Source of the DNA: Thozetella sp. PMI_491
Taxonomy: Eukaryota; Ascomycota; Sordariomycetes; Chaetosphaeriales; Chaetosphaeriaceae
DNA length: 64,000 nucleotides
NCBI GenBank assembly: GCA_021432635.1
Contig: MU270076.1
Location: 124,001-188,000, forward strand
Reading direction: 5' to 3'
The position numbers and the translations under genes were made by a program. Positions 717 to 880 of the stretch are shown here, piece after piece. How positions within the stretch are numbered: the stretch's first letter is position 1; every line of letters starts with the position of its first letter. The notes below the pieces were generated by a model. The model worked only from the letters and a program-made list of their open reading frames with translations, had not been told where the DNA came from and ran no database searches.

Positions 717-754
717 GGTGAGATGGCCGAGCGGTCTAAGGCGCCACGTTAAGG

Positions 755-780
755 ATATCTTAAAATCTTTAAAACTCCCT
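755..780 (+). other. Canonical tRNA intron (37/38)
   Basis: This 26-base AT-rich insertion lies right after purine 37 (G754) in the anticodon loop. It contains CTT, which can pair with the AAG anticodon, as expected of introns removed by the tRNA splicing endonuclease. Confidence 0.85.
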
Positions 781-804
781 CCGTGGTCCGAAAGGGCGTG
801 GGTT

Positions 805-861
805 GTACGTTGGACTCTTCCAAAATCATCGAGAGAGTGTTATACTGACTGAAATGTCCAG
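805..861 (+). other. Spliceosomal-type intron inside the tRNA T-loop
   Basis: This 57-base insertion sits between TT (803-804) and CGAAT (862-866) of the T-loop. It begins GTACGT and ends CCAG. It carries ACTGAC at 844-849, with the candidate branch A 13 bases before the end. These are the splice signals and spacing of the protein-gene introns in this window (for example GTACGT donors at 4788 and 21612, and ACTGAC in the 9180-9232 intron). The boundaries are unique: only a GT...AG cut restores the TTCGAAT loop and the perfect T-stem. The insertion also carries a degenerate B-box-like stretch (GTTGGACTC near 809). Whether it is removed cannot be told from sequence. Confidence 0.8.
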
Positions 862-880
862 CGAATCCCACTCTCATCAA

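Follow-up and report, generated by a model that had tools for sequence, protein, structure and literature searches.

Rogers reportedly described mRNA-type introns in the nuclear rRNA genes of ascomycetes in 1993, and Canzler et al. are said to have described introns in the U6 snRNA genes of fungi. To our knowledge, the introns that tRNA endonuclease removes in eukaryotes lie as a rule between positions 37 and 38 of the tRNA. The available part of PMC5832005 says that frequent interruption by introns is known for no small structured RNAs other than U3 and U6, and gives the branch motif of fungal introns as RCTRAY, 6 to 36 nucleotides from the 3' site. According to the same part of that paper, U3 introns occupy varied positions, some U3 genes carry two of them, and U3 is called a Pol III transcript. 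In the available part of the tRNA-intron review PMC4090602, insertions in the D and T arms of eukaryotic tRNA genes are mostly taken for pseudogenes, the exceptions being nucleomorphs and Cyanidioschyzon merolae, where introns lie outside 37/38, in the D and T arms, with up to three per gene. The string 'spliceosom' does not occur in the text of that review. Among the matches listed in a search of titles and abstract beginnings in the open-licence literature, there was no report of spliceosomal introns in nuclear tRNA genes.

The tRNA genes described here resemble the fungal U3 and U6 genes in that small structured RNA genes carry introns with GT-AG ends, an RCTRAY branch motif and the usual branch distance (PMC5832005, available part). 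They differ from that system in that the hosts are tRNA genes, in which 37/38 introns occur as well. The ascomycete rRNA introns are likewise of the spliceosomal type and in a non-coding RNA gene, but their host is a Pol I transcript and not a tRNA. The nucleomorph and C. merolae introns share the location outside 37/38; in the available part of PMC4090602, those of Guillardia are 3 to 24 nucleotides long, unlike those found here, and are described with no mention of GT-AG signals, and those of C. merolae have a bulge-helix-bulge and are cleaved by tRNA endonuclease. The four full U6 genes of the present genome contain no introns. A partial U6-like sequence (C49:64809-64867) adjoins an intact U6 gene and is likely a pseudogene.

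The window, which is the whole stretch of 64,000 nucleotides that was analysed, lies on contig C62 of a genome of 72.3 Mb in 157 contigs. A ROK1 helicase encoded in it reaches at most 63% identity to named proteins, the best of which come from Sordariales, and this places the fungus among the Sordariomycetes. Direct reading of its positions 717-879 (plus strand, as for all parts of this gene) gives a type II tRNA with the acceptor GGTGAGA/TCTCATC, the anticodon AAG and the discriminator base A, which is interrupted after position 37 (755-780) and between T55 and C56 (805-861). The 5' exon (717-754) runs from the 5' strand of the acceptor to position 37 and includes the A box TGGCCGAGCGG (724-734) and the anticodon (751-753). 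The 26 bases at 755-780, recognised by direct reading and by ARAGORN after removal of the other insert, are an ordinary 37/38 tRNA intron, in which CTTAA is the complement of TTAAG in the anticodon region. The middle exon (781-804) extends from position 38 to T55 and ends with the start of the B box (GGTT, 801-804). The 3' exon (862-879) comprises what remains of the T loop and of the B box (CGAATCC, 862-868), the T stem, the 3' strand of the acceptor and the discriminator A. The second insert splits the B box, as the original prediction had stated. The T runs that follow, TTTTTTTTTCTTTTTTT (881-897, direct reading), likely serve as the Pol III terminator.

The insert at 805-861 is 57 bases long. 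It begins with the 5' site GTACGT (805-810), carries CTGAC (845-849, within ACTGAC), in which the putative branch A, 13 bases from the end of the insert, is at 848, and finishes with the 3' site CAG (859-861, in the terminal CCAG), signals that had been claimed beforehand. We consider it very probable that this T-loop insert of a nuclear tRNA-Leu(AAG) gene is a U2-type spliceosomal intron, one of at least 20 that the genome has in its tRNA genes. Contig C31 carries tRNA-Leu(AAG) twice in tandem, each time with a 37/38 intron only, and the exon bases of the window gene are identical at 80 of 80 positions to those of both genes and of a further copy on contig C91. Because its exons equal two uninterrupted copies, the borders of the insert are fixed without the splice signals; comparison with the C31 paralogues leaves a single possible placement, which has GT and AG at its ends and agrees with the unique borders announced earlier. 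No tRNA was called in the window by ARAGORN or by Rfam at its gathering scores, and ARAGORN found none in the unspliced gene. When 805-861 was removed, ARAGORN reported a tRNA-Leu(aag) with a 26-base intron, which, together with the identity to the intact copies, bears out the claim that a perfect tRNA-Leu is left when both insertions are taken out.

Another 18 tRNA genes proved to hold 19 inserts built in the same way, which makes 20 inserts in 19 of the 67 tRNA genes read, in the D, anticodon, variable and T regions. They are 48 to 61 bases long, with one of 82 bases. The leucine genes other than that of the window are interrupted at 25/26 (Leu(AAG), C91:51000; GTAAGC...GCTAAC...GCAG, unrelated to the window insert), 53/54 (Leu(CAA), C2), 32/33 (Leu(TAG), C4) and 34/35, inside the anticodon (Leu(TAA), C33). 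Inserts are located at 59/60 (C26) and 23/24 (C38) of two Ser(GCT) genes, at 15/16 of Ser(TGA) (C9), at 58/59 of Ala(AGC) (C14), at 32/33 of two Phe(GAA) genes (C60), at 54/55 of Tyr(GTA) (C11) and at 32/33 of Cys(GCA) (C75). The lysine genes are interrupted at 46/47 (two Lys(CTT) genes, C67), 16/17 (Lys(CTT), C12) and 22/23 (Lys(TTT)-like, C21). Both Gln(CTG) genes of C23 have an insert at 33/34, and the second has another in the D loop (18/19), so that this gene carries two inserts on top of its 37/38 intron. A decayed Leu(AAG) locus at C86:52223 (minus strand), which was not counted, has an insert GTGAGC...CCTAAC...AG at or beside the site used in the C91 copy; it looks as if the intron were older than a duplication.

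The position numbers and anticodon names of the 19 genes are our own assignment, and a cloverleaf score yields the same anticodons. ARAGORN recognised 18 of the 19 genes with the inserts removed and 8 of the 19 before removal, with the assigned anticodon in 2 of those 8. Its anticodon for the spliced genes agreed with ours in 13 of 19 and differed for the genes on C4, C26, C38 and C12 and for one of those on C23 (C23a), and the gene on C2 was not accepted as a tRNA even without its insert.

These genes were reached through a D-arm pattern (8 matches, leading to C91:51000), Rfam hits and gapless D-arm patterns. The 67 genes comprise 45 from Rfam (2 interrupted; one organellar-looking and one odd), 17 more that are interrupted and 5 more that are not, namely the two Leu(AAG) genes on C31, Phe at C2:1333601, Trp on C113 and Glu on C54. 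The proportion of 19 in 67 describes a sample and not a census, because Rfam RF00005 scored 63 of 1545 candidates. The gapless D-arm scans gave 66 and 31 matches and their reversed-pattern controls 49 + 58 and 15 + 10; by these controls most of the mismatched matches are chance, and the 67 genes leave most of them out. Ten three-mismatch matches inspected by eye contained no tRNA gene. The C86 relic, a decayed-looking locus on C22, a gene truncated by the end of contig C48, the 3' fragment at C26:662690 and weak matches were also excluded. The DNA similarity search scores some candidates only and missed the C91 copy, and its empty answers therefore carry little weight.

Other tRNA-like loci were seen in the genome. 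The sequence at C12:1005778-1005858 is a type II tRNA-like gene with TGG in the anticodon loop and no T run nearby, and that at C10:530539 (minus strand) has a tRNA-like head with poor acceptor pairing and is perhaps a tRNA-derived repeat. Identical or near-identical tRNA gene pairs lie on opposite strands, 0.5 to 2.7 kb apart, at C14:601559/604313, C14:651358/651901 and C116:49696/50903.

All 20 inserts have GT...AG ends and a G at +5, and 17 of them have an A at +3. For 12 inserts, including that of the window, the borders were set by a close relative that is uninterrupted at the site, and with these independent borders GT-AG was among the 1 to 9 placements that tied for best in each of the 12. 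The borders of the remaining 8 were chosen with GT-AG in view. The Tyr insert of C11 belongs to these 8, and comparison with a more distant relative (four differing sites) placed GT-AG in none of the ten best placements. A cloverleaf score that takes no account of splice signals ranked our excision first for 8 of the 20 inserts; for several of the others the cuts that it preferred also took part of the 37/38 intron. Borders derived from this score were dropped in favour of the relative-based ones.

The motif YTVAY with its A located 9 to 14 bases from the end was present in 20 of 20 inserts versus 9.9% of end-preserving shuffles, and CTRAY was present in 17 of 20 versus 3.3%. In 257 kb of the genome with the tRNA inserts masked, read with no annotation, a strict 5' site with CTRAY and YAG at a spacing of 9 to 14 occurred 21 times versus 2 times in reversed sequence. 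The counts were 41 versus 18 with looser 5' sites and 74 versus 64 with the loosest motifs, with which the excess was nearly gone. By this annotation-free excess, the tRNA inserts appear to share the build of the other introns of the genome.

The best reading of these signals is that U2-type introns were gained many times in the tRNA genes. In the window gene, a pre-tRNA would be transcribed, presumably by Pol III, the spliceosome would take out the GT-AG intron with the A at 848 as branch point, and the 37/38 intron would be excised by tRNA endonuclease and ligase, which would leave a normal tRNA-Leu. Some tRNAs may thus require the spliceosome plus the usual tRNA-splicing enzyme. The earlier proposal, that a nuclear tRNA gene harbours an intron of the spliceosomal type and that its transcript would need both splicing machineries, is supported and is widened to 20 inserts in 19 genes.

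The introns would have been gained repeatedly and at many sites, for the most part in tRNA loops, a pattern compatible with introns having reverse-spliced into exposed pre-tRNA loops and then having been copied back into DNA. With duplicates counted once there are 17 events, 15 of which are in a loop or at its edge by our numbering; the exceptions, on C21 and C38, are in the D stem. The probability of this loop bias by chance is 0.003 to 0.012 at a background of 0.53 to 0.60. Such a bias would fit reverse splicing where loops are exposed, and it would also fit selection for inserts that do not disturb the folding of the stems. The scans depended on an intact D arm or on a fair Rfam score, which may likewise have skewed the loop count. 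We lean slightly towards the wider reading that decoding in this fungus depends on the spliceosome, with indispensable tRNAs, Ser(GCT) foremost among them but also Lys(CTT) and Gln(CTG), supplied solely from interrupted genes, with two machineries acting on some transcripts, one of which has three introns, and with repeated arrival of introns by reverse splicing.

The other explanation that survives best, which we nevertheless judge unlikely, is that the interrupted genes are dead, with introns or other DNA residing in unexpressed tRNA genes while the cell lives on uninterrupted copies. Leu(AAG) has two such copies, Phe has one and Tyr has two, Ala(AGC) and Cys(GCA) are likewise represented, and the window gene may be dispensable because of its two intact paralogues. 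Tyr was dropped from the anticodons without uninterrupted genes once its two uninterrupted copies had been found. The dead-gene explanation is also favoured by the splitting of the A or B box in several genes: the B box is split in five (C62, C2, C26, C14 and C11), and D-arm inserts either interrupt the A box or lie at its edge. The insert of C33 contains TTTTT, a possible Pol III stop. After splicing, the C2 gene has CG at T54T55 and the C11 gene has C54, and the usual T54 of the T loop is restored in neither; the interrupted Leu(AAG) gene of C86 is decayed.

Against this stands the state of the genes themselves, the exons of which are otherwise intact, with duplicated pairs that keep their exons and signals while the intron bodies drift. 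In three duplicated pairs the exon letters are identical (73 of 73 for Lys), the differences in Phe and Gln being confined to the 37/38 intron, and the insert bodies are 58 to 61% alike versus 48 to 51% in shuffles, a likeness that is about what kept signals alone would yield. The GT, the branch and the AG are kept in all three pairs, and the full set of splice signals is present in 20 of 20 inserts, whereas a dead insert would have no need of keeping it. The exons of the window gene and the three anticodons with interrupted copies only are a poor fit to the lone pseudogene that was named with the original prediction as its refutation.

Arm scans of the assembly with up to three mismatches yielded no copy free of inserts for Ser(GCT), Lys(CTT) or Gln(CTG), the Lys and Gln scans being looser fits than that for Ser(GCT). 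This also argues against dead genes. Ser(GCT) is the sole reader of AGY codons. The D-arm scan for Ser(GCT) (22 matches) gave two genes, both interrupted, and the T-arm scan (2 matches) gave the C38 gene again and a 3' half at C26:662690. All of the Lys(CTT) (3 of 3) and Gln(CTG) (2 of 2) genes found are interrupted. The Ser(GCT) 3' half (C26:662690-662728, minus strand) has no 5' half in the approximately 140 bases read upstream, and represents either a fragment or a gene whose interruption is longer.

Of the genes checked, 16 of the 19 with inserts and 28 of the 29 without have at least four T in a row within 40 bases downstream, and no AT-rich upstream region was peculiar to the interrupted genes (0.608 in the 16 genes with sufficient sequence upstream versus 0.615 in 29). 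The three Lys(CTT) genes have the 3' trailer CAATTCCYGATGCRC in common, followed by a small hairpin and later by a T run; unlike the other tRNA genes here, they have no T run in the first 40 bases.

It is quite improbable that the inserts are non-canonical introns cut by tRNA endonuclease at a bulge-helix-bulge, with an incidental GT-AG look. Several D- and T-arm introns per gene are known in nucleomorphs and in a red alga (PMC4090602, available part), and in the predicted fold of the window pre-tRNA an eight-pair helix between the ends of the insert (808-815/856-863) would stack near the T stem; the same helix holds the 3' border inside and is no common trait of the 20 inserts. A four-pair bulge-helix-bulge core at the fixed borders was found in 0 of 20 inserts (0 to 3 pairs), and complementarity between the intron ends was not enriched, with a mean run of 4.45 in the 20 inserts versus 4.34 in shuffles. 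This explanation leaves the GT-AG ends, the G at +5 and the branch motif without a reason, and it applies poorly to an insert that sits in the T loop and not at 37/38, where the intron at 755-780 does sit.

We give very little credence to a mobile family, introner-like or MITE-like, that is now spreading and of which the inserts would be copies. The insertions are many, short and similar in length, and fungal introner-like elements likewise consist of many gains of short GT-AG introns; the latter are near-identical copies, but the 20 inserts are dissimilar. A genome search with the window insert (E <= 10), of a type that scores some candidates only, returned the insert itself only, and 190 pairwise comparisons of the 20 inserts revealed no family, the median identity of 0.49 being about that of shuffled sequence. 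Between 1 and 9 placements are equivalent, depending on the insert, which leaves no room for a constant target duplication. The suggestion that an intron-like element landed in the window gene very recently is therefore unsupported, and an old burst of mobile copies that have since diverged may have taken place.

Group I introns are defined by an exon U before the intron and a G at the intron end, and the window insert taken alone follows a T and ends in G. The small degenerate group I introns reported in Phialophora rRNA genes are similar in size (56 to 81 nucleotides; PMC3160393, available part). That the inserts belong to this class is scarcely credible, as a T precedes the insert in 6 of 20 only and would be expected throughout.

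If the reading of the inserts as U2-type spliceosomal introns is confirmed, the spliceosome would have nuclear tRNAs among its substrates, next to mRNA, U6, U3 and rRNA, and a single class of transcripts would be served by two unrelated splicing machineries. Standard tRNA finders would miss or misname many such genes, as ARAGORN did in giving the assigned anticodon for 2 of 19 unspliced genes. The split A or B boxes would raise the question of how these genes are transcribed. Intron gains in RNAs of known structure would provide a test set for the reverse-splicing model, and the supply of tRNA in this fungus would be coupled to the activity of its spliceosome.
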